From positions 2,843,370-2,907,369 of the forward strand of contig NW_008705561.1 of the NCBI RefSeq assembly GCF_000186865.1: a stretch of 64,000 nt of DNA, read 5' to 3'. Shown piece by piece: positions 3,501-57,502 of this stretch; position 1 is the first letter of the stretch, and each line of letters begins with the position of its first letter. The translations under genes and the position numbers were made by a program. The notes under the pieces are model-generated. The model was not told the DNA's origin and ran no database searches. It worked only from the letters and a program-made list of their open reading frames with translations. This stretch comes from Aureococcus anophagefferens (Eukaryota > Sar > Pelagophyceae > Pelagomonadales > Pelagomonadaceae).

Positions 3501-6500
3501 ACGACCCCGCGCGGCCGCCGGAGCCGGACGGCGCGGCGCCGGAGCCGGAGCCGGCGCCGGGGCTCGCGGGCTCCATCGCCGCGTCGCTCCGGGCGTGCAA
3601 CGTCGCCGCCTGCGGCTCGGCCATGGACGCCGAGGACCCCTGCGAGGACGTCGTGCCCCGGGCCTACGAGCCGCCGCCGGAGGGCGCCCCCGCGCGCCGC
3701 GAGTCCGCGCGCGCGTCGTCCGCGGCGGCCGCGCGGCGCGGCCGCGCGGTGCTCGTCGTGCCCGAGGCCCGACTCGGCAGCCGCCACGGGCGCGTCGTCG
3801 TCGTCGAGGCCGAGTCCGGCTGCGGCAAGTCGGCGCAGGTGTCCGCGTTCGCGGCGCTCGCGTCGCCGCGGACCGCCGTCGTCTGCTTCTGTGCGGCCAA
3901 GCCCTTCGGGGAGACGACGCCGCTGGGCCCCTTCGTCGCCGTGGCCGCGCACTACGTCGGCGTCGTCGCGGCGCGCGCCTGCGGCGGCCGCCACGTCGCG
4001 TGCCGCGCGCTGCTCGGGCGGCCGGAGCTCGACGACGACGGCGCGTGGGACGCTGTGTGGAAATCAAATCTTCAACCCAACTTCAATGTGCGCGTAATCG
4101 AACGACTTGGACAAGACTCTTTCGCTGTGCTCCGAGAACTCGACGAGAGCAACCGATTCGTCCAAAAATCAGCCAAATCGACTTCGATTTGACCGAGATA
4201 GAGAGCTCTGAAGTTTGGTGGGGACCCCCCAAACCAGTGGTTGATTTCCACACAGGTGGGACGCGGCGCGGCGCGAGCTCCGCGACGTGCTGCGGGCGCC
4301 GGCGGAGCTGCGCCTCGACGGCGGCGACGGGAGCGCGAAATTCGCCCTGCTCTTCCGCCTGCTGAACGCCGCCGCGCGGGGGCCGCGGCCGCTCGTCGTC
4401 GTCATCGACGACGCGCAGCATCTCGACGTCGCCTCGTGGAAACTCGCGGCGCTCTGGCGCTCCGAGGCGCTGCCGGGGCTGCTGGTCCTCGCGACGCGGC
4501 CCCTCGTGTGCCTGCCGCCCTGGCGGGCGCGGGAGCGGGCCGCGGCGGCGTGCCTGCTCGGCGACGACGACGCGAGCGACGGCGAGGCCGACGAGGTCGC
4601 GCGGCGCGACGGCGGCGCGGCGCCGGCGGCGCCGACGACGATCCGCCTGGATGGGTTGCCGCCCGAGGACATGGAGTGCCTCGTGCTGGAGACGCTCGGC
4701 GTCGGCGTCTGCGCGCGCTCGCCCGTGCGGAAATCAACCGCTGGTTTGGGACGTCCCGACCAAACTTTGAAATTCTCTAGCTCGGCCAAATCGCCGTCGA
4801 TTCGGCTGATTTTTGGACGAATCGATCGCTCTCGTCGAGTTCTCGAAGCACAGCTGAAGATATTGTGTCGAAACGTTCAAATACGCGCATATTGAAGTCG
4901 GGTTGAAGATTTGATGTCCACGCAGGTGCTCGCGCGCGCTCCGCGGCGCGGTCTTCGAGTACTCGCGGGGCAACCCGGGCCTCGCCGCGGACGTTTTAGA
5001 CGAGCTCGTCCACGGGCCGGACCACGACGCGCGCTTCTCGCGCCGCGACGCGGGCCTCCCGCCGAGGCGCCGCCCGAACGCGGCGGCGCCCAAGCGGTCG
5101 TCGGCGAACGGGAAGCGGAGCCTCGCGGCCGCGCCGGCGAAGGACGGCGTCGTCGACGCGCGCCGGGCCCGGGCCTGGCTGCCGCCGCGGCCCGGCGCGC
5201 CCTCGCTCGAGGTCGTCGAGCTCAACGGGTCGACGCTCGTCCGCGGGCCCTCCGGGCGCGGGCCGGCCGCGCGGCTCGACGACCTCGGGCCCCGCGGCGG
5301 CCCGCACCCGGGCTGCCGCCTCGCGCGGGCGCGCCTGCGCACGTCCGCGGGGGCCCCGCTGCGCGTCGCGGAGACGGCGCGGCCGCGGAGCGCGTCGGGC
5401 GACTTCGCGGAGCGCGCGTCCGACGCAGGGCAGCAAAAGGGTGATTCAACGTCGCTTCAACGTGAGTGTTCCGCGCGCGCGCGTTTCAAACCCAGCACCC
5501 ACGCTTCGAGAGCGCTCCGAGAGATGATCGCTCGTCCAAAAATCAGCCGAAACGAGCGAAAACCGACCGAGATAGGAGCCTTTGAAGTTGGGCATGTCGC
5601 ACCCTTTTGCTGCCCAGGTCCGACGCCGGCGACGACGGCGCGGCGAAGAAGCGGCCGTCGTCGAGCGTCGTCGCCGTCGTCGACCGCTTCCCGCTCGCCA
5701 ACACGTCCCGCCAGTCGCTCACGGAGAAGCTCAACGGCCTCGACGTCACCGCGCTCATCGTCGCGAAGACCGGCGCGGGAAACGGGCGCGACAGGCCCAA
5801 AGGCTCCTCTCTCGGCCGTTTTCCACTCGTTTCGGCTGATGCTTGGACGAGCGATCATCGCTCGGAGCGGACTCGAAGCGTGGACGTTTGTTTTCCTCGA
5901 ACGCTCACGTTGAAGCGACGTCGCATCACCCAGGTCAAGACCGCGGCGCTCGTCGGCCACGCGTTCTCGCTGCCGTTCCTCAAAGACTGCGCGCCGCCGT
6001 CGCTGGGCGGCGACGCTTTGGAGGACGCCGTCGGCGACCTCGTGGCCCTCGGCCTGCTCGAGGTGCTCCCGGACGCGGGCGACGCGGTCGCGGGCCACGA
6101 CGACGCGCGCTACGGCGCGGGAAAAAAGGGCGCGAACTTCACAGGCTCCTAGCTCGACCGGTTTCCACTCGTTTTGGCTGATTTTTGGACGAGCGATCAT
6201 CCCTCGGAACGGCCTCGAAGCGTGGATGCTTTTTACGGAACGCGCGCGGAACGCTCCCGTTGAAGCGACGTCGAATCACGCTTTTCAGGTGCTCTACGCG
6301 GTCGCGCACGGCCCCGCGATGCGGCGCACCGTCGCGCGGCGCATGCTCGTGAGCGACCAGCAGCTCCTGCGGGACCGCATCCGCCGCGCGGCGGACGCGG
6401 CGGCCCAGAAGCGGTTCCGGCGGCGCGAGGCGCAGCTCGCGCGGCAGGTCGCCGTCGCCGGGTCGAGCCGCGGCGCGGAGACGTCGGGCGTGCTCCTCTG

Positions 6501-8130
6501 CCTCAAGCGCTGCGGCAAGGTGTCGTCGGCGCTGGCGCGCGTCGCCTGGACCTGCGAGGCGCTGTCGGCGCCGTCGCCGCGCGAACAGGGCGACGACGAC
6601 GCGGCCGACGGCGGCGTCTTCCGCGGCGCGTTCGTCCGGGGCGACCGGCGCCTCGCGGTGAACCAGCACGTCCACTACAAGCCGCGCTACGCGAGCCTCA
6701 CGGCGACGGAGCTGCTGCTCTTCAAGACGGAGGCCGACCTGCGCCGGGGCGCGCCCTACCACGCCGTGCCGCTCCTCGGCGCGTCGTGCGCGCTGGCCCG
6801 CGACGAGTCGCCGTCGTCCGCGACGAATCGGGCCCGGTCCAAGCTCGGCGGCCAGTCCGGCGCGCCGACGTTGGTGCTCACGTCGGGCAACTCGACGTCG
6901 AAGAAGCGGCGCGACGTCCTCGTCTTCGCGTCGCCGCGGCCCGGCGACGACGACGCGCGCGACGACCTCGAGGACTGGCTCGTCCGCGTGCGCCTCCTCG
7001 CGCGGCGCGAGCAGCAGCGGCGCGCGGCCCGGGACCACGACGCGGCGCACCACGACGTCGACGCGGCGGAGGAGGAGGAGGCGCCGCCGCGGCAGCGGTC
7101 CGCGGAGGACCACGCGCCGCCGCCGGACGCCGGCGCGGGACGCGGGCGCTTCGAGTTCGCTTCAACACGAGTGTGACGCGCCCGAGTGTTCCGGAGAAAG
7201 GATCCACGCTTCGAGAGCGCTCCGAGAGATCATCGCCCGTCCAAACATGAGCCAAAACGAGTGGAACACGACCGAGATCGGAGCCTCCAGAGTTGGGACG
7301 TTCGCGCGCTTTAGGCCGGACGCCGGCGACCACGTCGCGCCGCACCGCCACTCGCTCGCGCACCGGGCCGACGCCATGGTCCTGTCGAGGAACACGCGGC
7401 GCGACGGCCCGCGCGCCGCGCCGGCCGCGCCGCCGGACCTCCTGCGCGTCGTCGTGCGGGTCGAGGCCGCGAGGAACCTGCTGAACCGCGACGTCTACGC
7501 GCTCCCGCACTCCGTCGCCTACGCGCTGGCCCTCGGCGGCGCGCGGCGGCGGAGCGCGCGGCCCGTGCTCGGCAAGGCGGCCATCACGTGGGCCGAGGAG
7601 CACGCGTTCCTCGCGGAGCGCGCGGACGTCGACGACGGGGCGGGAACGGAGAGATTCAATTTCGCTTCAACGTGAGTGTGCCGCGCGCGCGCGTTCCGGG
7701 ACAAGCATCCACGCGTCGAGACCGTTCCGAGAGATGATCGCTCGTCCGAAAATCAGCCGAAACGAGCGGGAAACGGCCGAGATCGGAGCCTTTGAAGTTG
7801 GGCATGTCGCACTCTTTTCCTGCCCAGGTCGAGGACGCGACGTCCGGGTTGTCGAGCCTGAGGCTCGCGGTGCTCGACAAGCGCGCGTTCATCGCGCCGG
7901 ACCGCCTCGGCGACGTCGACGTCGACCTGCGGCCCTACGTCGTCGACGACCCGCCGGACGAGCCCGACGGCGCGCCCTGGGAGCGCCACGCGTGCCTGCG
8001 GGCCACCGACGCGACGTCGTTCCCGCTCAACGCGCCCCAGGAGCAGAACATCCTCTGGCTCGCGAAGGACAAGGTCCAGCCGCCGACCATCGCCCTCGCC
8101 ATCAAGATCTTCAAGGCGCGCGTCTCGTAA
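566..8130 (+). CDS. soluble adenylyl cyclase-like protein with PH-like and C2-like tail
   Basis: Class III nucleotide cyclase of the ADCY10 (sAC) type, expected to make cAMP from ATP. Exons: 566-4044, 4256-4714, 4926-5417, 5618-5759, 5934-6104, 6289-7121, 7315-7627, 7828-8130; joined they give 2063 codons with consistent phase. Cyclase domain 1 keeps both metal aspartates (CDVSGFTKL, D41; FKFAGDAM, D90). Cyclase domain 2 (about residues 290-440) carries VNLG and EYTCLGDSVNLAAR, the sAC C2 pattern. A STAND-type ATPase follows, with Walker A ESGCGKS near 1085 and Walker B VVIDDAQ near 1206. After the ATPase come a PH-like segment (about 1690-1825, ending in EDWLVRVRLL) and a C2-like segment (about 1900-2000); neither tail domain occurs in animal sAC as I know it. 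All seven introns are introner elements. The cyclase and ATPase assignments are firm, the tail domains less so. The ATG at 566 is the first in frame before cyclase domain 1. Confidence 0.9.
4045..4255 (+). mobile_element. introner element A-1 (cyclase intron 1)
   Basis: The target duplication GTGGGACG occurs at 4045-4052 and again at 4256-4263. The element between begins CTGTGTGGAAATCAA and ends with its inverted copy finishing in CAG. The donor GT is the first two bases of the left duplication and the acceptor AG is the end of the right inverted repeat. Removal restores WDAARRELRDVL across the junction. The core CGTCCAAAAATCAGCC is in the gene's sense direction. Confidence 0.95.
4715..4925 (+). 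mobile_element. introner element A-2 (cyclase intron 2, GC donor)
   Basis: Left duplication GCGCTCGC (4715-4722) and right duplication GTGCTCGC (4926-4933) differ at base 2. The element starts CCGTGCGGAAATCAA and ends TCCACGCAG. The core is antisense, opposite to A-1. Splicing from the GC at 4715 to the AG at 4925 keeps the frame into RALRGAVFEYSRGNPGL of the ATPase. No nearby GT gives a comparable join. Confidence 0.9.
5418..5617 (+). mobile_element. introner element B-1 (cyclase intron 3)
   Basis: The duplication GTCCGACG is perfect at 5418-5425 and 5618-5625. Terminal repeats are CAGGGCAGCAAAAGGGTG on the left and its complement on the right with one mismatch. The core is sense. Intron length is 200 and the donor is GT from the duplication. 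Splicing joins ERA to SDAGDDGAAKKR. Confidence 0.95.
5760..5933 (+). mobile_element. introner element B-2 (cyclase intron 4, degraded ends)
   Basis: A subfamily B copy in antisense orientation (GGCTGATGCTTGGACG) ending CATCACCCAG. The right flank reads GTCAAGAC. The left flank is GTCGCGAAGAC, which equals the right copy plus three bases. Using GT at 5760 gives ALI-VKTAALVG, matching the sAC ATPase pattern. Using GC at 5763 is also in frame and adds one Val. The left inverted repeat is poorly preserved. Confidence 0.85.
6105..6288 (+). mobile_element. introner element B-3 (cyclase intron 5, GC donor)
   Basis: Antisense subfamily B copy. Left flank GCGCGCTA and right flank GTGCTCTA match at six of eight positions. 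The acceptor is CTTTTCAG at 6281-6288. Splicing GC(6105)-AG(6288) is phase 0 and joins GHDD to VLYAVAHGP. Confidence 0.87.
7122..7314 (+). mobile_element. introner element B-4 (cyclase intron 6, GC donor)
   Basis: The duplication GCCGGACG is perfect at 7122-7129 and 7315-7322, so the co-opted donor is GC from the start. The acceptor is TTTAG instead of the usual CCCAG. Sense core, with point changes (CGTCCAAACATGAGCC). Splicing restores PPDAGDHVAPH. Confidence 0.92.
7628..7827 (+). mobile_element. introner element B-5 (cyclase intron 7)
   Basis: Left duplication GTCGACGA and right duplication GTCGAGGA differ at one base. The terminal repeat pair is CGGGGCGGGAA and TTCCTGCCCAG. Sense core, GT donor, 200 bp, phase 0. 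It joins ERAD to VEDATSG inside the C2-like segment. Confidence 0.93.
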
Positions 8131-9020: not shown

Positions 9021-10254
9021 ATGCGGTCGCTTCTCTACCTGTTCGTCGTGGCCGTCGCGGCGACTCCGCCGGCGAGGAAGCAGAAGCGGGCGGACAAGAA
9101 GCTGAAAAACTACGCGTCGACGCCACGCGAGGCGAGGAAGCAGAAGCGGGACGACAAGAAGCGGAGAAAATACTGCTACGCCGATGCGAACGACTCGTGC
9201 GACCTCCTCCACAACGCCGTCGGCGGCAACTGCCTGAAGCGGCTCCGCAAGGACCCGTCGCTCTGCCGGCGGCTCCGGAACGCGACGCGGAACGCCGTCG
9301 GGTACCTCGAGGACGCGGGAGCGCCGCCGATCGAGCCGATCCTCCGGCCCGTCGTCATCGGCGCGGGCTTCGGGCACACGGGCACGCACGCCGTCGCGGC
9401 GTACCTCGACGAGCTGGGCTTCAACGTCGCGCACAACCTGCCCCACGTCGTCGTCGACGCGATCCGCTGCCGCAACTTCGCGAAGCTCGACGCGTTCGAC
9501 GCGTTCCTCGCCGTGCCGAATAGCTTCCACCCGACTTCACTATGCGCGTCATCTTACGGTCTGGACCGGACTCCTCACTGGTTGATTCGCGCGCAGGTTC
9601 TTCGACGACCCGCTGGCCGCGACGTGGCCGATCCTCCGCCGCGTGTTCCCGAACCACCGCCTCGTGCTCACGCACCGCGACGACTACAAGCGCGTCTACG
9701 CGCCCGACGACGCGCGCTGCGTCGCGCGGCGCGAGCGGCGCGACCCGATCACGCTCGCGCACGCGGCGAGCTCGTGCATGGTCTTCGGGGCCGTCTGCGC
9801 CGCGGACCGGGCCTGGAACAAGCGCCTGCAGGACGAGAACGTGCGGCGCTTCCGCGACCACGAGCTCGTCGCGCGGCACCGGCGCAGATTCGGCATCGAG
9901 CACGGGCGCGCGCGATCCTTCGACATCAAGCGGGGCGAATTGAACTTCACGACGATGCGCGACTTCATCGGCACCTTCGGCGCCGCGGCGACGTACACGG
10001 GCGCGGGGCCCCACCACCCGGACTGGCCCTTCGACCACAAGGTCGACTCCGTCGGCTTCTCCCGCGGGAGCCCGGCATCCAAAATCAGCTCGGCGGGGAC
10101 GACCGGGGGGCGGACGCCCGGGCGCGCGCCGAGGACGCCGAAGGCCCGCGACAAGCTCGGGGCCCGCGCGGCGCCGTCCACGTTCCTCGACGAGGCCACG
10201 TTCCGACGAGCGGGCCCCGTGGACGTGCGGTTCGACGACGACATCGTGCGATGA
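9021..10254 (+). CDS. secretory-pathway sulfotransferase-like protein
   Basis: Exons 9021-9502 and 9597-10254 give 379 residues. The start at 9021 opens a hydrophobic signal or anchor (MRSLLYLFVVAVAATPPA). It is followed by two copies of a basic ARKQKR-DKK unit, then GAGFGHTGTHAVAAYL (near residue 113), the 5'-phosphosulfate loop pattern of the Sulfotransfer_4-type family. LVLTHRDDYKRVY lies where the 3'-phosphate-binding segment of that family sits. The likely role is transfer of sulfate from PAPS to a glycan or protein in the Golgi; the substrate is unknown. A PAPS-transporter-like gene lies at 60242-61252. The frame also extends upstream of 9021, but that part does not look like protein. 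It converges with the next gene, 30 bp between stops. Confidence 0.75.
9503..9596 (+). mobile_element. internally deleted introner element A-3 (94 bp)
   Basis: Left duplication GTTCCTCG (9503-9510) and right GTTCTTCG (9597-9604) differ once. The left part (CTTCCACCCGACTTCACTATGCGCGTC) is recognisably the A-1 start, and the right end CTGGTTGATTCGCGCGCAG is the A right end. The middle, including the shared core, is missing. Splicing GT(9503)-AG(9596) restores DAFDAFFDDPLAATW. Confidence 0.85.
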
Positions 10255-10284: not shown

Positions 10285-12432
10285 CTAGACCACGCTTGCG
10301 TCTTGCGAAGGGCGCACGAGCGCCGCGGCGTGGTCGGGGTCCTTGTCGTCGTAGGCGTCGAGCTCGTCGAGCGCGCGCGCCATAACGTCGTGCGCGGCCG
10401 CCCCCTCGGTCGGCGGCGCGTCGTCCGGAGGCGGCGCGAGCTCGTCGAGCGCGCGCGCGAAGTCGTCGTCCGGGGCCTCGTCGGCCGGCGGCGCGGCGGT
10501 CTCGTCCTCGGGAGGAACCGCGTCGTCCGGAGGCGGGTCGTCCGGAGGCGGCGCCGCGTCGTCGGCAGCCGCCGCGTCGTCCGGAGTCGACTCGTCCTCG
10601 GCAGCCGCCGCGTCGTCGGGAGTCGACTCGTCCTCGGGAGGCGCCGCGTCGTCCGGAGGCGGGTCGTCCGGAGGCGGCGCCGCGTCGTCGGGAGTCGACT
10701 CGATCTCCGGCGGCGCCGCGGCGGCCGGAGGCGGCGCGTGGGGCGGCGCCTCCGCTTCGTCGTCGGACGGCCGCGGCGTGTCGTCGAGTGGGATATCCAC
10801 GAGCACGCCCTCGTCGCCCTCGGCCCCGGCCTCCTCGTCGCCGGCGGCCTCTTCGAGGCGCATCGGGTTCTCCGAGACGCGGACGTCGTCGCCGTCGTAG
10901 GCGTCGACGGTGGCCCCCGGCTTCGCGGCGCGCGCGAGCGCGGGCAGCTCGACGCGGCGCGGGATGAGCGCCCGGGGCCCCCGGAGGCAGGCGTCGAGGC
11001 GCGGCCGCCGCGCGCGGACCTCGCCGACGTAGGCCCGCCACGCGTCCAGCGACTTGCGCTGCAGCCCAAAGGTGAAGAAGCAGGCGCAGCCCTGGGCGCT
11101 GCCGACGCCGAAGAAGACGAAGTAGAGCACGACCTTGGAGTAGGGGTAGCCGCCCGGCGCGCCCCGGCAGGGCCCCGCGTCGCCGTCGAAGTAGCTCTCC
11201 TCCAGGAGGCACGCGATCCACCGCTCCCACGCGTCGGACCCCGCCTCCTGCGCCATGGCGTCCACGGCGATGGCGAAGCAGCAGAACATGAAGATCATGT
11301 TCGCGCAGTGGAGCACGATGAAGACGAGGGGCGTGCCCGCCTGTGTGCAAATCAACCGCTGGTTCGGGACGTCCCGACCAAACTTTTGAAATTCTCGAGC
11401 TCGGTCACATCGAAGTCGATTCGGCTGATTTTTGGACGGATCGATTGCTCTCCTCGAGCTGTCGAAGCACAGCGGAAATGCTCGTCTCAAAACATTTCGA
11501 ATACGATCACATTGAAGTCGGGTTGAAGATTTGATTTGCGCACGGGTGCCCGCGAAGCCCATCTTCCGCGCGAAGCCCGGGTCGTCGAAGATCGCCGGCG
11601 TCGCCGACGCGCGCGCCTTCGCCGCCGCCGCCGCGATGGACGCCAGGGACTTGCGGAACCGCGACCGCCGCGTCGCCTCCGCGCCCGGCGGCGGGGCCGC
11701 GGGCGCCGCGCGGTGCTGCGGCGACACGGCCGTCGTCGGTTTCCGCGCGATGACGTATAGGACGTGGCACATGAAGCCGAGGCCGACGAAGGACGTCGCG
11801 AACATGGGCCCGAGCCAGAAGGCCCAGATGAAGGTGCCCGTGACGCGTTCCCGCGCCGGCGCGCTCCCGGGGTTGAGGTAGGGCCTGTGTGCAAATCAAC
11901 CGCTGGTTTGGAACGTCCCGACCAAACTTTGAAATTCTCTAGCTCGGTCAAATCGAAGTCGATTCGGCTGATTTTTGGACGGATCGATTGCTCTCATCGA
12001 GTTCTCGAAGCGCAGCGGAAGTGCTTGTGTCAAAACATTCGAATACGCTCACATTGAAGTCGAGTTGAAGATTTGATTTCCACACAGAGGTAGGGCGAGC
12101 AGATGGGGANNNNNNNNNNNNNNNNNNNNNNNNNNNNNNNNNNNNNNNNNNNNNNNNNNGCCAGCGTCGCCGCGACGGCGGCGTCGCTCGCCGCGTCGAC
12201 GCCGGAGACGACGCCGGCGCAGGCCGCCGACGCGTTGCCCGCGAGGGACCGGCCGCCGCAGCCCCCGCCGCAGTGGCAGCCCGACAATCGCAACGCCGCG
12301 CAGGTCTGGGGCGACCGGTCGCCCGGCGCGAAGCCGCCGCAGACCGCACCGCAGCCGCCGGCGGCCGCGATCTCGCGCGTCAGCGAGGCGCCGCCGGCGC
12401 CCGCGACGACGAGCAGCAGCCGCGCGAAGATC
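10285..12432 (-). CDS. multi-pass membrane protein with acidic Pro-rich tail (spans assembly gap)
   Basis: Exons on the minus strand: 12432 into a 50-N gap and on to 12097; 11884-11554; 11340-10285. The start gives a signal-like MIFARLLLVVAGAGGASL, followed by a Cys/Gly-rich ectodomain (GCHCGGGCGG). After the gap there are three clear hydrophobic segments: one around WAFWLGPMFATSFVGLGF, one around LVFIVLHCANMIFMFCCF and one around VVLYFVFFGVGSAQGCACFF. The C-terminal third is acidic and proline-rich, with a repeated S/TPDDAAPPPDDPP unit that is also a DNA tandem repeat at about 10490-10710. A receptor-like topology is possible but no family signature is seen. Two introners split the membrane region. 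The gap leaves part of exon 1 unknown. Confidence 0.7.
10490..10710. repeat. coding tandem repeat (Asp/Pro/Ala tail)
   Basis: Repeated GCGTCGTCCGGAGGCGG-type units, about 30-45 bp and variably spaced, encode the TPDDAAPPPDD-type repeats of the membrane-protein tail. Copies differ at a few bases and in length, as expected from slippage. Confidence 0.7.
11341..11553 (-). mobile_element. introner element A-4 (GC donor)
   Basis: The perfect duplication GCGGGCAC (minus strand) lies at 11553-11546 and 11340-11333. The element starts CCGTGCGCAAATCAA and ends TTGCACACAG. The core is sense to the gene. Splicing GC(11553)-AG(11341) restores MGFAGTPLVFIVLH, so the co-opted donor is GC. Confidence 0.94.
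11885..12096 (-). mobile_element. introner element A-5 (GC donor)
   Basis: The duplication GCCCTACC (minus strand; ten bases match if the ends are included) lies at 12096-12089 and 11884-11877. The terminal repeat is CTGTGTGGAAATCAA and its complement with one change. Sense core. Splicing joins CS to PYLNPGS in phase 2. Very similar to A-4, so probably recent. Confidence 0.94.
12110..12159. other. assembly gap (50 N)
   Basis: Fifty consecutive N inside exon 1 of the membrane-protein gene. Its uniform length suggests a placeholder and not a measured size. The flanking sequence is GC-rich and codes on the minus strand. Confidence 0.99.
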
Positions 12433-12558
12433 ATGGCGCCCGAAGAGCCATAGCCCAGCGTGCACGCTTCAATACGCTTCACCGCCGGCCGCAACTCGCA
12501 CCAGACCAGCAAGTAGACCAGCTCATCTGACCAGCTCCCGATCCCAAAAAAACGGAGG

Positions 12559-18808: not shown

Positions 18809-18864
18809 CGTCCCGCGGGTAGCGCGCGCTGGTCGCGCCCTACCGGCGCCCGTGAGTCGCCGCC
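18809..18864. promoter_or_regulatory. short bidirectional promoter region
   Basis: Only 56 bases separate the ATG codons of the PCID2-like gene (minus) and the dynein-docking gene (plus). Both transcripts must start within this interval or inside the opposite gene's leader. No TATA box is visible. Confidence 0.45.
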
Positions 18865-22954: not shown

Positions 22955-22965
22955 GTCGCTTCTCG

Positions 22966-30147: not shown

Positions 30148-31377
30148 ATGGTTTCTCGCAACTCCCTGCTCTTCGCGGCCTTCGCGACCTAAACGTCCGC
30201 TGAATTCATCGAGAGCACCAACAGCCCCTTCCCCTACATCGACGTCGGTTTCGCCAACAAGCCCTGGTTGGCCGACGTCGACGGCGACGGCGACCTCGAC
30301 CTCGTCGTGGGCGATCACTATGTCTTTGGCGAACCCGGAAAAATCAGCTACTAAGAAAACGTCGGGTCCGCGGCGTCGCCGAGCTACGAGGAGAAGACCG
30401 GCACCGCGAACCCCTTCGACGGCATCGACGTCGGTTCCTACAGCGCGCCCGCGCTCGCCGACGTCGACGGCGACGGCGACATCGACCTCGTGGTGGGCGA
30501 ATCCGTAGGCTTCCTCTACTACTACGAGAACGTCGGGTCCGCGGCGTCGCCGAGCTACGAGGAGAAGACCGGCACCGCGAACCCCTTCGACGGCATCTAC
30601 TTTCACAATGGCTACAGCGCGCCCGCGCTCGCCGACCTCGACGGCGACGGCGACCTCGACCTCGTCGGGGGCGAATTCGACGGCTGGCTCTACTACTACG
30701 AAAACGTCGGGTCCGCGGCGTCGCCGAACTACGTGTCCGTCACCGGCAGCGACAGCCCCTTCGAGGGCCTCGACGTCGGTGACGACTTCGCGCCCGCGCT
30801 CGCCGGCGTCGCTGACCACAGCGTGCCCGCGCTCGCCGACGTCGACGGCGACGGCGACCTCGACCTCGTCGTGGGCGCAGGCGACGGCACCCTCTACTAC
30901 TTCGAGAACGTCGGGTCCGCGACGTCGCCGAGCTTCGCGGCCGTCACCGGCAGCGACAGCCCCTTCGACGGCGTCGACGCCGTTGAGCGCAGCGCGCCCG
31001 CGTTCGGCGACGTCAACGGCGACGGCAACCTCGACCTCGTCGTGGGCGCTATGGACGGAAAGCTATACTACTACGACGAACCGACGCACGCACCGACGCT
31101 GACGCCCGCGCCGTCCCCGCGGCCGACCACGCCCGCGCCGTCCCCGCGGCCGACCACGCCCGCGCCGTCCCCGCTGCCGACCACGCCGATCGACGACGAC
31201 GACGACGACGACGACGCCATGTCCGCTGCGATGATCCTCTTCGCCGCCTCCGGGTGGTGCGTGGCGCTCGTGGTGATCGTCGCCGCGCTCGTCGCCGCGA
31301 AGCGCCGCCGGACGCCCCCCCTCGAGCCCGCCGTCGAGCTCCCGACGAAGGAGGCGCCCGCCGCGCAGATGGCCTAG
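30148..31377 (+). pseudogene. FG-GAP/VCBS-like repeat membrane protein with two in-frame TAA codons
   Basis: From ATG at 30148 (MVSRNSLLFAAFAT, signal-like) the frame carries TAA at 30190-30192 and again at 30352-30354, then stays open to TAG at 31375-31377. The encoded repeats are about 55-70 residues with the pattern ENVGSAASPSY, NPFDG, SAPALADVDGDGDLDLVVG, LYYY. The DxDGDxDL loops are Ca-binding FG-GAP style. The second TAA replaces a Tyr of the repeated YYYENVG motif. A Pro/Thr stalk (PSPRPTTP repeats), an Asp run and a C-terminal transmembrane helix (GWCVALVVIVAALVAAK) complete a surface-protein layout. Either the 5' part is dead and translation starts at 30490, or the whole gene is a recent pseudogene. 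Confidence 0.7.
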
Positions 31378-35958: not shown

Positions 35959-38900
35959 CTAGCCCGACGTGAGCCGCCGGTTGCCGCGGGAGGAGCTCTT
36001 CTCGCGGGGCTTGCGGCCGCCCTGGAGCATGTACTGCTGCTCCGTCGTGAGGAGCTTCTTGTTCTTGTGCATGAGGCGCGCCTGGCCCGTGCGCAGGTTG
36101 CCCATGGCCGCGAGCGCGCGCGTCTGCGCGAGCGCGGCGTCGGCGACGGGCCCCGACATCTTCGCGTCGAGGCACGCCTTCAGGCTCTTGCGCGCGGAGA
36201 CGAGGGCGACGACGCCCTCCTTGCGCTCGAGGTCGTTCTGGAGCTCGTAGAGGAGGCGCACGACGCGGCCGCCGAACTCGTGGGTCCGCGCGATGAGCTC
36301 GGAGTGGCCCTCGATGTCGCTGAGGCCGCGGTCGCGCCACCACTGGCTGTAGAGCTCCCAGTGGATGGGGCCCGACACCTTGGGCTGGCACTTGCCGTTC
36401 TCCATGTCCATGTTCCACCACTCGTGGTAGTAGCCCCGCTCCTCGCTGTGGACGATGTTGTACAAATTGATGGGGTCCAAATCGGAGTACGACCCGACGG
36501 CCTCCGGCGGCTTCACGATCTTCAGGCCCGCCTCGACCATGCGCAGGGCGATCTCCTCGTCGTCCAGGCCCCAGCCCCAGTTGTCGTTGGCGTAGCCGTT
36601 GCAGGCGACGTAGTCCTCGGGCCGGAACGCCAGCGCGCCGCCCACGAACTCCGCGTTGCGGTACTTGGTCCGCCACGCGCCGCCGAGGTGCACGGGCCGC
36701 TTCGACTTGGGCGGGCACGTGTAGTAGGGCATCAGATCCTCGCTCGGCAGAATGTCGATGTCGTGGAAGATGACCGAATCGTAGGGCCGGCCCTCGGCCT
36801 CCGCCTCTTGCACGACGTCGCGGAACGCCGCGTTCATCAACCGGCCCCGGTTGAACTTGCGGCCGTCGTCGGTCTGCGTCGCGATGACGACCGTGAACTC
36901 GCACTTGGGCCGCGCGTAGCCCAGGTAGGCGACCATGTAGGGCACGAACTTGAAGAGCTGGGGCTGCCGGTCCTGGAGCGGCAGCTGGTTCCGGTACGCG
37001 GCGATGAGGCAGACGCGCGGCGGCCGGTCGCCGAGCTTCGCGCTGACCATGGAGATGATCGCGTCCGTCTTGCGCTTCACGAGGGCCATGGGCGATTTGT
37101 CCTCCTCCTTCTCCTCGACGGCCGTCTCCTCCTCTTTTTTCTCCTCCTCGCCGTCCTTGGCCTCCTCGGCGCCGCCCTCGGCCGCGGCCTTGATCGCCTC
37201 GGGCGTCTTGCCGCCCTCGGTGAGGAGCTGGTACTCGGCCTCGCACTCGTTGACGTAGTGGTCGTCGGGCTTGGAGCAGACGAGCTTGTGGTGGGGCCTG
37301 AGTGGAAATACAACCAGTGGAACGCCCTGTCCAGCAAAAACTTCAAACCTCTCTAGCTCGGCCAAATCGAAGTCGATTCGGCTGATTTTTGGACGAATCG
37401 ATTGCTCGCGTCGAGTTCTCGAAGCACGGCCGAAGAGCTTGCGTCGAAACTGTCGCATGCGCTCACATTGAAGTCGGGTTGAAGATTTGATTTCCACGCG
37501 GGGTGGGGCCACGCGGCCTTGCCGCACTCCGTCGAGCAGTAGAGCGTCGTCTTGCAGCGGCCGCAGCGCTTGAACTTCTTGTTGCCGTGCATGAGGCGCG
37601 TGGGCTTGCGGCACCAGGAGCACTGCTTCTCGTTGCGGAAGGGGTTCATCGTCGCGTGGTCCATGCCGTTCCAGTCGTAGCCGTCCGGCCGCTGGAGCAG
37701 CGAGAACGAATTCGGGTCCACGAGCTCCTTGCCCGTGACGTCCTCGTCCTGGAGCTCGCACGACAACAGGTCGACCTCGAAGCGGAGCCAGGTGCCCCGG
37801 GGCGACTCCTTGGAGTAGCCCGGCACGGCCGGGTAGCGGCCCTTGCGGCCGAAGGTCTTCTCGGGCACCATGACGAAGTGCGCGAGCTCGCCGACGCGCA
37901 TGGACGCGAGGCCCTCGTGGAGGCCCTGGAGGTACTTTTTGGAGCGGGGCACGCCGTTGTGGTCCTCGTCGCAGAAGAGGCGTAATTTCTCCGGCTCGAC
38001 CTTTTGGGTCTGGTAGTCCTCGTCGTACGAGCTCTGGCAGACCGTGCCGTCGAGGCGCGACATGATGATGTGGCAGACGACGAGGCAGCCCGCCGTGGGC
38101 CGCCGGTTCGGCCCGTCGCGGGGCGCCTCGCGCTCGATCCACTTCTTCACGGAGATGTCGCCGTTGAGCAGGTAGGGCTTCTCCTTGGTCGCGTTCCGCT
38201 CGTCGTCGGACGCGGGCTCGCCCTGCGCGTCGTAGTAGGCCCGGTGCGTCGGCGCGCCGGGGCGGTGGGGCCACTCGTCCCAGTCCCAGAACTTCTTGTA
38301 CTCGTCGGTGTCCGTCTTCCAGATGTGGCCGCTCTTGACGACGTCCTCGACGGTGAGCAGCGCGAGCTGCGTCGCGGCCTCCGCCTCTTTCGCGTCGTCC
38401 TCCGCGGACTTGGCCGGGCCCGTCGCGGGCCGCGGCGGGAGCTTGTACTGGCGCCAGCCGCTGTTCTTCTGCCGCTCCCACTCCTCGGCCTCCTCGAGCT
38501 CGCGCTGCTCCCGTTCCTCGCGCGTCTCCTCGATGACCTTGTCGTCGTCGCTCGCGGCCGTCTCGCCGTCGCCGCCCCCGAGGCCGTCGAGGCCCAGGGA
38601 GAGCACGGGCAGGTCGTCGTCGCTGCCGATGAAATCGTCGTCGTCCGCCTCGGGCGTCAGCCCGCCGTCCGCGACGGACATCATCTCGAGCAGCGCCATC
38701 GGGTTCGGCGCGCCGTCGCCGCTCCGCGCGCCCGGCGCCGCGCCCTTGAACAACCCCTCGGGCGCCTGGGGCACGTCGATCTTGCCCTGCTCCCAGGCCA
38801 GCAGCTGCTCGTACCACTCCACGGTCACGTCCTTCTTCTCCATGATCGGGTTCGCGGCTTTGAGGGACCGCGAGATGCCCTCGCCCTCCTTGATCTTGCC

Positions 38901-39745
38901 GACCCACTCCTTCTTGCGCACGTGCTCCGCGGGGATCTTCAGCTCCACGTGGCCGTGCTGGAAGCGGATGTCGTAGGTGCAGTCCTCGTCGTGGATGCCG
39001 ACGACCATGCCGTTGAAGTAGTTCCGCACCTTCTTGTAGCGCGCCTCGCAGCGGTCGCCGATGTCCATCTGCATGAGGTGGCGCATCTGGGCGTAGTCGA
39101 TGTAGTAGCCGAGGTTCATGCCGCTCTGGCCGTCCTGGGTCTCGATCTTCGTCTTGTTCTTATCGTGGCCCAGCTGCTCCTCGCCGCCGTCGCCGCGGCC
39201 GAAGTAGTAGCCCTTCATGCGGCCCTCGAACTTCAAGGCCGGTATGAACTCGACGCGGCCGTCGGCCCCGCGGCCCTTCTTGAGCTTCTGCTGGCGGTGG
39301 AAGTACTCCATGTTCTTGACGCGGACCTCCGCGATCTCGGCCGGCGTCAGCTGGCGCCGCTCGACCTCGGGCGGCTCGAACTTCTTGATCTTCTCGAGGC
39401 GCTCGCGCTCCGTCTCCGCCTCGAGCTCCTTGACCTCGAAGTCCATGGGCGCCCAGAGCGGGTGGTTCCGCGGCAGCGCCCACGCGGAGCCGACCTGAGA
39501 AAGTTTCGCCTCGGACGCGCGCGGCGCGAACTCCGGGGACGCCGCTTCCGCGCGTTCGGCGTCGCCGCGCCGTAGAGCGAGTGCGTCTCGATGTCGCCCT
39601 GCTGCACGGGGTCCACGAGCGTGATCGCCCCGGCGTCCGCGATCTTCTCGCCGCGGTCGAAGCGGCCCGTGCCTACGTTGCGGGTCTGGGGGGCGCCGCG
39701 CGCGCGCGCCACGCACCCTCGCCGCCGCCGAACTCCCATCGGCAT
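35959..39745 (-). CDS. fusion of FKBP-type isomerase, MYND finger and beta-1,4-galactosyltransferase domain
   Basis: Main exons: about 39525-37510 and 37297-35959. N-terminal exon(s) near 39745-39550 (NVGTGRFDRGEKIADAGAIT) have an unresolved splice. Domain order: charged helix; Tudor-like segment (GDRCEARYKKVRNYF ... CTYDIRFQHG); FKBP domain (AGCLVVCHIIMSRLDGTV to LRFEVDLL); MYND zinc finger (CSWCRKPTRLM, FKRCGRCKTTLYCSTEC, then H..C in the next exon); and a GT7 domain with DIDILPSED, FVGGALAFRPEDY and NDNWGWGLDDEEI, the donor- and metal-binding motifs of beta4-galactosyltransferases. The introner at 37298-37509 splits the MYND finger. No signal peptide is seen, which is odd for a GT7 enzyme; two genes joined by read-through is the alternative, but the MYND finger is only complete when both exons are joined. 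Confidence 0.8.
37298..37509 (-). mobile_element. introner element A-6 (GC donor, inside MYND finger)
   Basis: Perfect duplication GCCCCACC on the minus strand at 37509-37502 and 37297-37290. The element starts CCGCGTGGAAATCAA and ends GTATTTCCACTCAG. Sense core. Splicing GC-AG gives AAWPHHKLVCSK, which completes the last His and Cys ligands of the MYND zinc finger. Confidence 0.95.
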
Positions 39746-41813: not shown

Positions 41814-42352
41814 CGTTCCAGGGGCTGCCCCAACGGAGTTAATCCACATATTAAGGACAAAGTTCAAATTTTACCTTACACGGAAATGACCCCTTAGTCA
41901 AGAACAAGCACATTTTCGGTTATTTTTTAACACATCTCGGTTTTTTTTCGCAAATTTTATAAGGATTTTTTTACACCAACGTCCTTTTTAAAAATTTACA
42001 TTTTAACAACCACTTTTTAATGATTTTTTAGCGAGTTTCCTAAAATTTTAAAAAATTTAACCACTTTTGGTGAAGTAATGTTTACCTTCAAAAATCGCGG
42101 TCAGTTTTATATCAGGTTTGGTTAAATATTATTTGGTCTTTTATAAGGTTTTGTGATGGTCACAAAGAAAAACTCACAAACCTAAAACATAAAAAAAAAC
42201 CTACCTAATAGGACTAAAACAGGAAATGACACTTCAACATCTGTTTTTTGGAAAGTCCGGGACAAATTCCCTAATAAAAACTTCCCCATCAGAATTACTA
42301 TGATTTCCTCCTGGGCAATGACACCTCCATCCGGCAGGAATCAGCATGCACT

Positions 42353-42649
42353 CTAAACACCTAATAACATCAATTCCATATTTATCACATTAGAAACATT
42401 CCAATTAGATATATCTTGATTGAAAGCCTCCGCTTGATAGAACATATTTTTCATATTAGTCACATTAGAAACATTCCAATCACCAATATATTGATTAAAA
42501 CATTCAGCGTCCGAAAACATACCTATCATTTCAGTAACATTAGAAACATCCCAATTACCAATAGGTTGATTGAATTTTTCACATGCAGCAAATACATAAT
42601 TCATTTTTTTTACATTAGAAACATCCCATTTAGAAATATCTTCATACAA
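42353..42649 (-). CDS. DUF285-type (BspA-like) repeat protein, probably a fragment
   Basis: 98 residues with four tandem units of about 25 residues: FNQPIGNWDVSNVTEM, FNQYIGDWNVSNVTNM, FNQDISNWNVSNVINM and a first partial unit starting EDISKWDVSNVKKM. This is the DUF285 signature (FNQDISxWDVSxVTxMxxMF). Such proteins occur in bacteria, some protists and large algal viruses; function unknown, often surface or interaction proteins. It ends abruptly after a degraded last repeat (MELMLLGV) and starts without a signal peptide, so it is a fragment of a longer repeat protein. Codon use is AT-rich, unlike every neighbour. Confidence 0.75.
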   Translation of the reverse strand: MYEDISKWDVSNVKKMNYVFAACEKFNQPIGNWDVSNVTEMIGMFSDAECFNQYIGDWNVSNVTNMKNMFYQAEAFNQDISNWNVSNVINMELMLLGV

Positions 42650-42660
42650 TAATTATATAA

Positions 42661-43078
42661 TATACAAAATACATCTCATTCCCTTATCCAGAAAGGGTCG
42701 CGCTTTAGCGGTGAATACAGCGTGGAATTGCCATTCAAGTTTTCGGAAGTGTTTTGATATTCCAGGATTTCAGTTTTTTAAAAGGGAATATTGCTACAAC
42801 TCCTTATATAACACATCCAAATCAACAATCTCTTCCTTTTTACAGACGTTTTTCAAAATAAAATTAAAAAAATTCGAAAAAAAAATAAATTTATTACAAG
42901 ACTTATAGAATATACCAAATACAACTCATTCCCTTATCCAGAAAGGGTCGCGCTTTAGCGGTGAATACAGCGTGGAATTATACAAATACATCTCATTCCC
43001 TTATCCAGAAAGGGTCGCGCTTTAGCGGTGAATACAGCGTGGAATTATACAAAAACCGCATCATTCCCTTATACAGAT
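42661..43078. repeat. 67-bp repeat, three full copies and one partial
   Basis: The unit contains ATTCCCTTATCCAGAAAGGG then TCGCGCTTTAGCGGTGAA and ends near CAGCGTGGAATT. Copies: 42661-42729, 42911-42979, 42980-43046, and a broken one at 43047-43078. The second and third are directly adjacent. CCCTTATCCAGAAAGGG is itself a weak inverted repeat. The unit is notably richer in GC than the surrounding island. Confidence 0.9.
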
Positions 43079-43461
43079 GATCTCAAAAATTTTAACATCA
43101 TGTCATAAAATAACCAGTGTTGTTTAATTATTAACTTCTGGTTGGATATGAACAAACTTTGGTCATTTTACAAGCCAATTCCCCCCAACGGGCCTCGAGT
43201 TTTTGTGGAAACTTGCCATAACTAGGGGATCGTGGGCCGCGCGGTCGTGCCTGTTTGTTGTTGGCGAGCAGGCTTGTGCGCGACGTGGGCGGCGGTAAGG
43301 CGAAAAACGATGTCCCCCACGCCTGCCGCTGCGACGTCTGTGGCAGGCGCGACGACGACGTGTGCGGGCGCCGCCCGGGGCGGCCGCCCCGTGTCCCGGC
43401 GGGGCCGGCCGTAGAACAGAAGACGAGCATCTGGGTGCCCAGGGCGATCCGCGCCGTCAAG

Positions 43462-52854: not shown

Positions 52855-52976
52855 CGCAGAGCAAAAGCGCCCTGGTCAATGTGCCGTCAACTTAATTTAT
52901 GCAGCCCTTTGTTGAAGCCCGACGCGTACGACCGAACCGAAACCGCGCTCTTATAAAAAAAAGACGAGGACGCGCC

Positions 52977-55900
52977 TCAGTCGTCGGTGGCGAAGCGCGC
53001 GAGGAGGTGCTCGTACTTGGGGACGTCGCGGAGCGTGGCCGTCTTCGCGTCCGCGTCCGCGAGGAGCCGCTTGACGTCGGCGACCGCGTCCGTCCGCGGG
53101 CTCACGGCCGCGTCGCCGACGGCGACGAGCGCGAGGCCCGGCGCGAAGCCGCGGTCCGCCAGGTTTTGGGGCTGGTCGCCGAGGACGAAGTACGCGCGGC
53201 CGTCGACGTCGCCGACGGCGACGTTCAAGGCGTCGCCGGCCGCGAGCGCGACGACGACGTCCGGCGGCGGCGCGAGCGTCACGGAAAAGGCCGCCCCACT
53301 CGCCGCGGCGGCCTTGGCCTCCGCGAGCACGCGCCGCCCCACGAGCGCGGGCGTCGCGTAGCCCGCGGACATGCGGAGGAGCCGCCTGGGCAGGAAAAGG
53401 GTGCGAAATTCCCAACTTCAAAGGCTCCTCTCTCGGTCGTTTTCCGCTCGTTTCGGCTCATTTTTGGACGAGCGATCATCTCTCGGAGCGCTCTCGACGC
53501 GTGGATGCTTTTTCCGGAACGCGCGCGCGCGGAACACTCATGTTGAAGCGAACTTGAATCACTCTTTTCCTGCCCTGGGAGCCGCGGCGCGCCCGTGCAC
53601 GCGCAGAGCAGGAACCCGACGGTCGCGCCGCGCCGCTCGCCCGCCGCGACCTCGCCGTTCGGCCCCCGCGCGAAGTCCTTGACGACGCAGGCCTCGGTCA
53701 TCGTCCCGTGCGTCTTGAGCTTGAGGCCGATGGTCTCCGCGCGCCGGCCCGGCGGCGACGCGTCGAAGAGGACGACGTCCGCCGCGCGGCCGCCGCGGCC
53801 GCCGCCGCGGCGCCGCGCGCGCGCGGCCCGGGCCCCCGGCGCGAGCTCGAGCCCCAGCACCCGGGGCCGCGCGGGCGACGTCACGCGCACGACCGTGTCG
53901 TCGCGCGCGAGGTCCCGCGCGTCCGCGCCGTCGACCTGGGCAGGACAAGAGAGATTCAACGTCGCTTCAACGTGAGTGTTCCGCGCGCGCGCGTTCCGAA
54001 AAAAGCATCCACGCTTCGAGACCGTTCCGAGAGATGATCGCTCGTCCAAGAATGAGCCGAAACGAGTGAAAAACGGCCGAGATCGAAGCCTTTGAAGTTG
54101 GGAATTTCGCTCTCTTGTCCTGCCCCGCCGTCGACGGACACCAATCGCGCGCCGGCGACGTCGTCCGCGGAGAAGCCCTGCTGCGCGAGCGCCGCGGCGC
54201 ACTGGCCGCCGGCGACGAGGCCCGCGACGGCGAGGTGGCGCGGGTCGTCCGGGTGCTGCGCGAGCTCGAGGCCCAGGGGCCCCGGTGCCCGGAGCGTCAC
54301 GTCGACGTCGCCCGCGGCGCAGTCGCCCTCGAGCCGCGGCAGGTCGCATACGTCCGGCAGGTCCAGCGCCCGCCGGAGCGGCGCCCAGGACGCGCCGAGG
54401 AGCGCGTTGATGGGCTCGAGCAGGTCGCGGCTCTTGTCGACGACGAGGTCCCGTAAAGCTTCGCAGACGTAGTCGCGGATCTGGTCCCGGAAGAGCCCCG
54501 CGAGGGAGTTGAAGACCCAGGAGAAGCGGTGCTCGTCCATGGTCAGCTCGAGGTCGTCGATGGCGACGTCGCAGCGCGTCAGCGCGACGACGGGCTCCGG
54601 GTCGCCGCTTTCCGAGTTCCGGCGCCGCGCGCTCAGCGCGAGCGCGACGGACGCGTCCGCGACCTGGGCGGGAACAGGGTGATGCAACGTCGCTTCAACG
54701 TCAGAGTTCCGCGCGCGCGCGTTCCGGAACAAGCATGCACGCGTCGAGACCGTTCCAAGAGATGATCGCTCGTCCCAAAATCAGCCGAAACGAGCGGGAC
54801 GCGGCCGAGAGAGGAGAAGTTGGGAAGTTCGCACCCTTTTCCCGCCCCGTCCGCGACGGCGACGTCCGCGCGGCCCTCGGCCTCGAGGAAGGGGAACTGC
54901 TTCTGCCGGAAGCGCCAGGTCAGGTTCGGGAACGTCGCCGAGATGCGCACGGCCTTGAGCGCGAAGAGCGCGCCGCCGCCGTCGACGTCCGCGTCGTCGC
55001 CGCCGGCCCGGAGCCCGACGCCCTTGCGCACGACCCGGGACCCGTCGGACGACGCGACGTCGACGGTGACGTCGTTCTCGTCGATGCGCAGCTGGGACAA
55101 ATTCAAATTGTCGAGGAAGTAGTCGACGTTGTCGGACTCGACGTCGACGGGGGGCACGGGCATCGCCGGCAGGTGGCGCAGCAAGAAGCCCAGCGCCGCG
55201 TCGTTGACCTTGCGGACGACGTCGTCGCGCGCCGACGCGTCGGCCGCCAGCGACTCGGCCGTCGCGACGACGTCGTCCGCGTCGAGCGTCGCGACGGCGT
55301 CGAGCGCGTCGCGGACGCCGTCGTCGTCCGTCGCCATTTGGGCAAAGTGCATGACGCGCTCGTCGCGGTTCAGCGCGCTCAGCGTCTCGAGGAGCGACGC
55401 CGACGCGTCCGCGACGCGCCGCACGCCGTCGACGGCCGCGTCGCCGTCGAGCGCGCGGCGGCTCGCGGCCGCGACGTCGCCGCTGCCCGCGACGTCCTCG
55501 AGCGCGGACTTCAGCGGCGACTCCGCGAGGAGCGCGCCGAGGGCGTTGTGGTCGCCGCCGCCGGCGTAGCCCAGGGCGAGCGTCGCCGCCCGCCGCGCGA
55601 GGTCGTCGCCGGACTCGGGCGCGCCCTCGGCGAGCGTCGCGACCAACTCGTCGACGGACGCGGTCGCGGCCCGCGCGAGCGCGCCCTCGTAGGCGTCCGC
55701 GGCGACGGCGAGGTCGAGGAGCCAGCTTTCGCCGAGGCCGCAGGCCTCGGCGGCCTCCACGGCCGCGGCGAGGGCCGCGCGGAGCGCGTCCGCGGCCGCG
55801 TCCGGCGGGAGCCGCGAGAAGCCCGCGGACCGCGCCTCGCGGAGCCAGGCCCGCGCGAAGTCCGCCGCCGCGTGGGCGACGGCCGCCGCGGCCTCGCCCG

Positions 55901-57502
55901 CGCCGCCGGCGCTCTCCGCGACGAGGGACCAGGAACTCGCGCGCGCGGCCGCGAGCGCGTCGTCGAACGCGCGCTCGAACGCGTCGCCGTCGAGCAGCTT
56001 GCTCGCGACGACGCGCGCCGCGACCTCCCGGGCCTTGGCCTTGAGCGCGTCGCCCCGGTTGTCCGCGCCGACCTCGGCGCCCATGAGCGTCGCGAGGGCG
56101 CCCGTGCGGCTCTCGGCCTCGAGCGCCGCGCGCGCGCGGCCGACCTCGGCCTCCAAATCCCGCGCCGCGCGCGACTCCGCGACGGCGGCGCCGACGGCGC
56201 CCGACAGGTCCGTCACCTCGTCGCGCGCGCGCCGGAGCTCCGGGTGGTCCGCCTCCGCTCTTTCCAGGGAGCTCGCGAGCTCGCTCGACGCGCCGTCGAC
56301 GAGCGCGCGGAGGTCCCGGGGCCCGTCGGACGCCGCCGCGGTCCGGTAGAGCTCGAGCTCCGCGGCCTCGTCGCCCACGTCCCGCGCCGTGGCCTCGTAG
56401 ATGTCGGCGGCCTCGCCCGACTTGCGCCGCGCGAGCGCCGCGAGCTCCGCCTCGACGTCGTCGGCCTCGAGCGCCGTCGCGAGCGACGACCGGAGGTCGC
56501 GCCTGGGCAGCAAAAGGGTGATTCAACGTCGCTTCAACGTGAGTGTTCCGCGCGCGCGCGTTCCGGAAATAGCATCCACGCTTCGAGAGCGTTCCGAGAG
56601 ATGATCGCTCGTCCAAAAGTCAGCCAAAACGAGTAGAAAACGGCCGAGAAAGGAGCCTTTGAAGTTGGGAATTTCGCTCTCTTTTCCTGCCCTGGGTCGC
56701 GCGTCGCTCCTTTCGTCCGCGCGACGAGGCGGTCGAGCGCCGGCGCGTCGCGCTCCAGCAGGCCCGTCGCCTCGGAGAGCCCCGCGTCGATGCGGTCGTC
56801 GAGGTCCTCGGCGAGGAGCGCGTCGCGCACGGACGCGGGCAGCGCGTCCGTGAGCTTTTTGAGCGCGCCGATCGCCGTCTCGACCATGGCGACGGCCGCG
56901 CCGGAGACGCAGTGCGCGACGGGCGCCGCGGTCGCCGCGGGGCAGGCGACGGACCGCGCGTCGTGCGGCGCCACCAGGCGGCCGCCCCAGTCCAGGACCG
57001 CGCGCGTCGCCCCGTCGCCGACGGCCGCGGCCGCGCCGCGGCCGAACGGCGTGACGACCGCGTAGCCGTCCGCGCAGGGCAGCGCGCGCAGCACGTCGCC
57101 GCTCGGGACGACGTCGAGGCCCGGCGCGACGAGGTGCGCGCCGTCGGCCGCGCGCCAGCCGAGGAGCACGCCCGTCCGCCGCGCGCCGTCCGGAGCGCGC
57201 CACGCGACGCACGTCCCGGGCGGGCCGAAGCCCCGCGCGCCGACGCGCGCCCAGGCCGCGCGCCAGGAGCCCCAGGCCGCGCGGACGACCACGGCGTCGC
57301 CCTCGATTTGCACCACGACGCCGGCGCAGGGCCCGGGCAGCGCGACCGCGCCGCCGACGGCGGGCGCCGGCGACGGCGCCGGGAACTCGGCGCTGCCCCA
57401 GGCGCACTCGACGCGCACCGTCGACGCGTCGACGCGCGCCACGACGCCCTCCGACGCGGCGTCGCGCATGCACACGGCCGCGCCGACGCGGGGCACCGCC
57501 AT
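52977..57502 (-). CDS. large BPI-like lipid-binding and PDZ-like protein with four introners
   Basis: Exons 57502-56703, 56502-54858, 54663-54136, 53935-53586, 53385-52977; 1243 codons in consistent phase. The N-terminal 200 residues have repeated small beta blocks (VRVECAWGSAEFPAP, VVVRAAWGSWRAAW), then a long helical region of about 450 residues. From about residue 720 to 930 the sequence (VDYFLDNLNLSQLRIDENDV, ISATFPNLTWRFRQKQFPF, DDLELTMDEHRFSWVFNSLA) resembles BPI/HAM1-type lipid-binding folds. Two or three PDZ-like segments follow (PLGLELAQHPDDPRHLAVAG; AETIGLKLKTHG; a last one near FAPGLALVAVGDAAV). It may bind lipids at a membrane contact, but no exact family is identified. No signal peptide. 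Confidence 0.75.
53386..53585 (-). mobile_element. introner element B-6 (GC donor)
   Basis: Perfect duplication GCGGCTCC (minus strand) at 53585-53578 and 53385-53378. Terminal repeats CAGGGCAGGAAAAGAGTG and CACCCTTTTCCTGCCCAG. Core sense to the gene. 200 bp. Splicing restores GAPRLLRMSAGY. Confidence 0.95.
53936..54135 (-). mobile_element. introner element B-7
   Basis: Perfect duplication GTCGACGG (minus strand) at 54135-54128 and 53935-53928. Terminal repeats GCGGGGCAGGACAAGAGAG and CTCTTGTCCTGCCCAG. Core antisense. GT donor, 200 bp, phase 0, joining LVS to VDGADARD. Confidence 0.95.
54664..54857 (-). mobile_element. introner element B-8
   Basis: Duplication GTCGCGGAC (nine bases match) on the minus strand at 54857-54849 and 54663-54655. 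Ends GGGGCGGGAAAAGGGTG and CACCCTGTTCCCGCCCAG. Core antisense. GT donor, 194 bp. Joins ADVA to VADASVALAL. Confidence 0.95.
56503..56702 (-). mobile_element. introner element B-9 (GC donor)
   Basis: Perfect duplication GCGCGACC (minus strand) at 56702-56695 and 56502-56495. Ends CAGGGCAGGAAAAGAGAG and CACCCTTTTGCTGCCCAG. Core antisense. 200 bp. GC-AG splicing restores TKGATRDLRSSLATAL. Confidence 0.95.

Follow-up and report, generated by a model that had tools for sequence, protein, structure and literature searches.

The question raised by a stretch of 64,000 nucleotides on contig C1 of the brown-tide alga Aureococcus anophagefferens (positions 2,843,370-2,907,369, in the following called the window) is where the introns of its larger genes come from, since fifteen of them, distributed over five genes, are short elements with terminal inverted repeats (TIRs) and a target-site duplication (TSD) of 8 bp. 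These elements are almost certainly Aureococcus introners, i.e. non-autonomous cut-and-paste DNA transposons of about 200 bp that resemble miniature inverted-repeat transposable elements (MITEs) and become introns upon landing in genes. The phenomenon is already known for A. anophagefferens, and in 2016 Huff et al. reportedly described the mechanism for Aureococcus and Micromonas, in Aureococcus with an 8-bp TSD, a donor derived from the duplication and an acceptor within the element. The original prediction for the window had named the mechanism of both genera; its Aureococcus part stands, as the window is itself from A. anophagefferens and the passages of the literature at hand agree. Introners are a clear case of wholesale intron production by transposons, and the window has seven of them in a single gene.

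The window, with a GC content of about 71%, was searched for repeats and for similarity to the first copies, and all 15 predicted elements were recovered in the five genes, with lengths of 94-213 bp as claimed. They belong to two families, A (about 203 bp, with the end CTGTGTGGAAATCAA) and B (about 192 bp, with the end C[AT]GGGCAG[CG]AAAAG). Eleven copies were located via their TIRs, which are clear in these, and the other four via similarity to those 11; in the latter the repeats are eroded (5763, 6105, 7122) or the element is also internally deleted (9503, 94 bp). In window coordinates, each intron starts together with the left duplication and ends together with the element. The duplication is perfect in ten of the 15, matches at 7/8 positions in three (4715, 7628, 9503) and at 6/8 in two (5763, 6105), in line with the predicted one or two mismatches, apart from one extra base at 11885. 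The donor consists of the two bases with which the left duplication begins, GT in six introns and GC in nine, and the acceptor is an AG supplied by the element in all 15. This predicted arrangement thus holds by position throughout, with the qualification that the boundaries of five copies (5763, 6105, 7122, 9503 and 11885) were picked among candidates under an imposed GT/GC start and AG end; among the 11 repeat-placed copies, the donor is present unshifted in ten, and 11885 needs a shift by one base.

Removal of the element together with one copy of the duplication leaves spanning open frames at all 15 introns, as had been predicted, and the resulting five frames have 464-2079 amino acids. 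Long open frames are, however, cheap at 71% GC. In a held-out test, for which a codon model was trained on gene 4 and the ODAD1 gene of the window alone and the best of six frames was compared for each flank, strand and phase were preserved across the junction in 13 of 14 held-out introns, the single miss being 11885, which adjoins a short run of N. In addition, the protein P0001 (65 members) crosses the junction of gene 4 unbroken, with 1083 of 1095 residues identical. As the five frames are open throughout after removal of nothing other than these elements, the claim that transposition is the source of nearly all introns in these genes is supported.

Gene 1 (566..8130, plus strand) is adenylate/guanylate-cyclase-like (PF00211, E = 1.2e-13), has a stop-to-stop frame of 2079 amino acids and contains the seven introner introns mentioned above. 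Two are of family A, namely 4045..4255 (TSD GTGGGACG, 8/8, GT donor) and 4715..4925 (core reversed; TSD GCGCTCGC/GTGCTCGC, 7/8, GC donor), and five are of family B, namely 5418..5617 (TSD GTCCGACG, 8/8, GT donor), the eroded copies 5763..5933 and 6105..6288 (both with a 6/8 TSD and a GC donor), 7122..7314 with eroded ends (TSD GCCGGACG, 8/8, GC donor, TAG acceptor) and 7628..7827 (TSD GTCGACGA/GTCGAGGA, 7/8, GT donor). Gene 2 (9021..10254, plus strand, stop-to-stop frame of 464 amino acids) is possibly sulfotransferase-like, its match to PF17784 (E = 6.4e-4) being below the Pfam cut-off with 20.1 bits vs 22.8, and it contains the internally deleted family A copy 9503..9596 (TSD GTTCCTCG/GTTCTTCG, 7/8, GT donor). 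The other three genes and their introns are on the minus strand. Gene 3 (10285..12434, 622 amino acids from stop to stop, with a short run of N inside), for which a Pfam scan of two exons gave no family match, has two family A introns with GC donors, 11341..11553 (TSD 8/8) and 11885..12096 with its 9-bp duplication (one extra base). Gene 4 (35959..39446, 1198 amino acids from stop to stop) combines FKBP, MYND and galactosyltransferase parts, and its family A intron 37298..37509 (TSD 8/8, GC donor), the junction of which is spanned by P0001, lies in the MYND region. Gene 5 (52977..57502, 1248 amino acids from stop to stop) likewise gave no family match in a Pfam scan of two exons in frame; its four introns are all of family B with 8/8 duplications, 53386..53585 (GC donor) and, with reversed cores, 53936..54135 (GT), 54664..54857 (GT) and 56503..56702 (GC).

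The elements are by no means confined to the window. The genome that was searched comprises 49.05 Mb on 86 contigs, and the search proposed in the original prediction, with the consensus ends and a test for duplications, gave 774 exact matches to the family A repeat (TIR-A) and 1530 to the family B repeat (TIR-B), as compared to 0 and 1 for the reversed patterns, and a sharp 8-bp duplication in 51 full-length copies, of which 11 are from the window. In these 51 copies the per-base identity of the left and right flanks is 0.82-0.98 in eight positions and 0.22-0.41 beyond them, and shuffled flank pairs reach at most 0.73 at any position; it is this shuffled-pair test that decides that the elements are beyond chance. 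The duplication is at least 7/8 in 46 of the 51 copies without any shift and in 94 of 106 copies when the register is anchored on the repeat end; a few copies have a 9-bp duplication or a register that is off by one to two bases. Within the window, TIR-A with up to three mismatches has 10 matches vs 0.20 expected, and a 17-base core with up to two mismatches has 3,819 matches genome-wide and one in the control. Seventeen 10-kb stretches of C1, positioned regardless of elements, contain 10 copies in 170 kb, which corresponds to about 2,900 per genome, and with 15 copies in 64 kb the window is densely populated by comparison. Six stretches in viral contigs fitted two patterns, and none of them is an introner, as these are short partial matches (best E = 0.0014).

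The splice sites could be followed beyond the window with a model that was trained on window genes only and applied to 37 full-length non-window copies, each with flanks of 240 bases and at least 7/8 matches in the duplication. Of these 37, 32 reached a coding score of at least 0.5, as compared to 53.5% of 6000 randomly placed points (p = 4e-5). The coding strand is the donor strand in all 22 copies that have a donor on one strand, 14 have a donor on both strands, and one has it on neither in that register. With the window included, 48 copies had the same flanks and duplication, and after six were dropped for a weak coding score, 42 were scored. All 42 have GT (17) or GC (25) as coding-strand donor, the chance rate being about 20% (648 of 3212 random coding points) and GC being 2.9 times commoner than GT in the surrounding DNA. 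The used end is CAG in 42/42, and the unused end has AG in 21/42; in family A this is 30/30 for the used and 21/30 for the unused end (Fisher p = 0.002), in family B 12/12 and 0/12. The scored copies lie in sense (22) as well as antisense (20) orientation, and the intron phases 0, 1 and 2 occur 17, 9 and 16 times.

These features would be well explained if a transposase supplied in trans cut the target in a staggered fashion, so that 8 bp of target DNA come to lie on both sides of the insert. The GT or GC with which the left copy begins on the transcribed strand would then act as 5' splice site, and the terminal repeat of the element, ending in AG, as 3' splice site. Splicing would take out the element and one copy of the duplication and thereby restore the former mRNA, and unspliceable insertions would presumably be lost through selection. 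The repeats, the duplications, the positions of donors and acceptors, the continuity of frames and the agreement with the coding strand are demonstrated at the level of the DNA sequence. A spreading of introns via reverse splicing of RNA copies without any DNA transposition, as proposed for fungal introner-like elements, would go along with the preference of the tested copies for coding DNA (the 32 of 37 mentioned above), but it is disfavoured because it predicts neither the donor-containing 8-bp duplications nor the antisense copies, and the terminal inverted repeats speak against it as well; it is thus very improbable. Even less credible is that ordinary MITEs lie in intergenic or otherwise non-coding DNA and that their fit to exons and introns is an accident of long frames at 71% GC. 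Open frames are indeed long in several frames here, and an unfiltered mechanical scan for TSDs with TIRs produced mostly noise, but an accidental fit would leave the coding-strand donor near 20%, and not at 22/22 of the informative non-window copies and 42/42 of the scored ones, nor would it account for the used acceptor in every scored copy or for P0001 crossing the junction of gene 4.

Several observations weigh against the introner interpretation or take away from its support. Strand and phase are kept after removal in 33 of the 37 non-window copies, which demonstrates continuity and yet no surplus over ordinary DNA of this genome, because frame agreement is seen at 77.6% of random contiguous points as well. 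P0001 may derive from an intron-less allele and not from a spliced transcript. For gene 1, the top-scoring database match extends over 23% of the protein, so that homology lends no support to the junctions of this gene, and a full-length match to gene 1 was not found in the protein database. Loose TIR-B matches (up to three mismatches) in the window are not above chance (15 vs 9.5 expected), and the mechanical scan was dropped, as its 197 matches were mainly GC-rich noise and its reversed-sequence control was symmetric and therefore worthless. Finally, genome profile searches for hAT, KDZ, MULE and P-like transposases revealed no autonomous partner that could mobilise the elements.

As to which transposon superfamily the introners might be satellites of, two candidates have to be considered. 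Transposons of the hAT type generate 8-bp duplications, the ends of family B (CAGGG...) resemble hAT ends, and a hAT origin is a tentative possibility. Family A starts with CTG, which does not fit, and the hAT profiles PF05699 and PF14372 had no match in the genome, with the control genomes being likewise silent. The same was found for the KDZ profile PF18758 (no genome match, controls silent), and for MULE, represented by the single domain model PF10551, there was no genome match with three of 14 controls positive. An 8-bp TSD is also typical of the P superfamily, P-like transposases do exist in the genome, and one P-like transposase domain (C25:178372-178818) directly adjoins an introner core. 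An origin from this superfamily is nevertheless unlikely, and less probable than one from hAT. The core on C25 turned out to be an intron that splits a P-element-like transposase gene (about C25 177958-179312), and the proximity is therefore due to an insertion: the alignment of a related transposase runs as far as residue 282 ahead of the introner and resumes at residue 298 behind it, and the junction, as read by eye, is GTAAGCTA ... TAG directly followed by GTAAACTT, with an intron of 160 bp and the phase kept. The C25 transposase was thus rejected as master element. Over the 395 codons before the introner, its frame contains TAG seven times, neither TAA nor TGA, and no apparent frameshift, and the AT-rich part beyond the introner has stops of all three kinds (by eye); the gene looks like a decayed copy. 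One side of this element reads N, and its ends are not readable.

Two relatives of this transposase, on C2 and C11, have 99.9% identity to one another and no stop within the matched part, and their coding region is divided between two overlapping frames. The one on C2 belongs to a P-like transposon of about 5.3 kb (C2 3446601-3451872) with 65-bp terminal repeats starting with CAAGGGGATCTTC, of which C11 has a near-identical copy. On C7 and C23, such repeats form pairs with a spacing of about 1.4 kb, which seem to be non-autonomous derivatives. The terminal repeats of the C2 element are unlike the introner ends, and no 7/8 duplication was found near its ends; a scan for TSDs and TIRs gave GC-rich noise only. 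For both reasons the C2/C11 element was rejected as mobiliser of the introners, and to name the mobilising transposase would still be of value.

Another aspect is whether the introners choose their targets. If the register is fixed by the repeat end, a GY donor (GT or GC) is present on at least one strand in 100 of 106 copies, and the remaining six gain one after a shift by one or two bases. In a set of 55 full-length copies (from 59 stretches), chosen solely for an exact terminal repeat, a GY end is present in 52 vs 36.3% of background 8-mers (p = 9e-20), and in the other three after a shift by one or two bases. The opposite end is weakly enriched for GY in the anchored register (32/100 vs 21.7%, p = 0.015), and in the best register 30 of 101 copies have it (p = 0.069). 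A symmetric preference of the transposase is disfavoured, because both ends should then be enriched equally. Random insertion followed by purging is disfavoured as well, because many donor-less copies in non-coding DNA would then be expected, and none was met among the 106 copies examined. Their absence may be due to gene-directed insertion or to strong purging everywhere, and an explanation for it would still be of value. A directed insertion into coding DNA that is transcribed and has a GY on the sense strand, in addition to purging at a later stage, is doubtful at present, though it deserves consideration.

Families A and B have a common core of about 50-150 bp with about 63-76% identity and thus look like one stock that carries different ends. 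Both ends could serve as acceptor in 66 of the 92 full-length copies of family A, a figure that is raised by the many copies chosen by an exact end. In family B the ends are different. For 85 of the 1530 TIR-B matches, all on C1, the sequence was compared, and among the matches listed, all 29 complete pairs with a distance of 150-200 bases consist of one CTG and one CAG end, differing in base 2, with 15 pairs in one direction and 14 in the other. The sole exception to the CTG/CAG rule among the matches listed, not counted with the 29, is a pair of facing exact TIR-B ends at C1 618576-619054, 479 bp across and CAG at both sides, which is probably a longer or a composite element. Other candidates for long elements had to be rejected, as a pair of exact TIRs 4.5 kb apart on C1 represents two separate introners, and twelve TIR-A ends with an odd next base belong to ordinary or shortened copies, none of which is long.

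Fourteen full-length family B copies could be compared in more detail, of which five are also among the 29 pairs and two have a weak coding score; four partial copies were excluded. All 14 use their CTG end as acceptor, regardless of the direction of the core, and the other end is CAG in seven, CGG in five and CCG or CAC in the others. Sense and antisense copies differ by 0.116 between the groups and by 0.095 within them (permutation p = 0.0014, n = 14), and for 11 of the 14 the nearest neighbour is in the same orientation group. Both results led to the rejection of a single-lineage account in favour of two partly mixed sublineages, and judged from these sequences the simplest reading would be that family B consists of two mirror-image one-way lineages. 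If insertion is indeed directed, these sublineages would each be adapted to a single direction of transcription. Why the family B copies among the matches listed pair one acceptor with one non-acceptor end would still be worth explaining.

In the passages available, published accounts of introners in the same species fit the window copies with respect to TIRs and direct repeats (PMC7789003), a length of about 210 bp (PMC9481584), and the occurrence in both orientations, which was described together with a location in nucleosome linkers (PMC10228655). PMC7789003 calls the splice motifs of A. anophagefferens introners canonical, whereas GC is the majority donor here (25 of 42 on the coding strand); besides this wording, no other contradiction was found in these passages. 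Within the genus, family 4 of Aureococcus sp. TARA_AOS_82_MAG_00129 likewise has an 8-bp TSD, but according to the passage the 5' and the 3' splice site are both part of its element and the mRNA becomes 12 bp longer (PMC9860276), whereas the window copies take their donor from the duplication and would restore the mRNA. Introners of the unrelated host Symbiodinium microadriaticum, as far as covered in the same source, also have TIRs, a 3' splice site in the element and a 5' splice site from the TSD, which has 4 bp and not 8 bp (PMC9860276). The introns of Pelagomonas calceolata have a length peak at about 210 bp and are likened to A. anophagefferens introners in the passage concerned (PMC9481584), a likeness that is one of length and not of a sequence-level comparison here. 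The homology of the A and B cores, the division of family B into mirror-image sublineages and the insertion of a copy into a transposase gene were not met in the literature passages, among which the Huff paper itself is not included, and a literature search for "introner" and "P element" together returned no papers.

The window has some further features apart from its introners. The gene of the outer dynein arm docking protein ODAD1 (18856-20445) is uninterrupted and without introners. Its product is identical to the A. anophagefferens protein AURANDRAFT_19380 at 495 of 495 aligned residues, with AURANDRAFT_19380 lacking a 32-residue stretch, so that the window comes from the species, and perhaps even from the strain, for which the introners were described. 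A second model of the species, JL720_3647, is 88% identical over 75%, the differences being mostly blocks that resemble gene-model errors. An AT-rich island at 41805-43231 has 33% GC vs 71% in the genome, and its minus strand matches DUF285 (PF03382, E = 5.5e-39) if stops are read as X; it is possibly a foreign gene. Long tandem repeats of 174-204 bp with overlapping open frames are found at 30348-31014.

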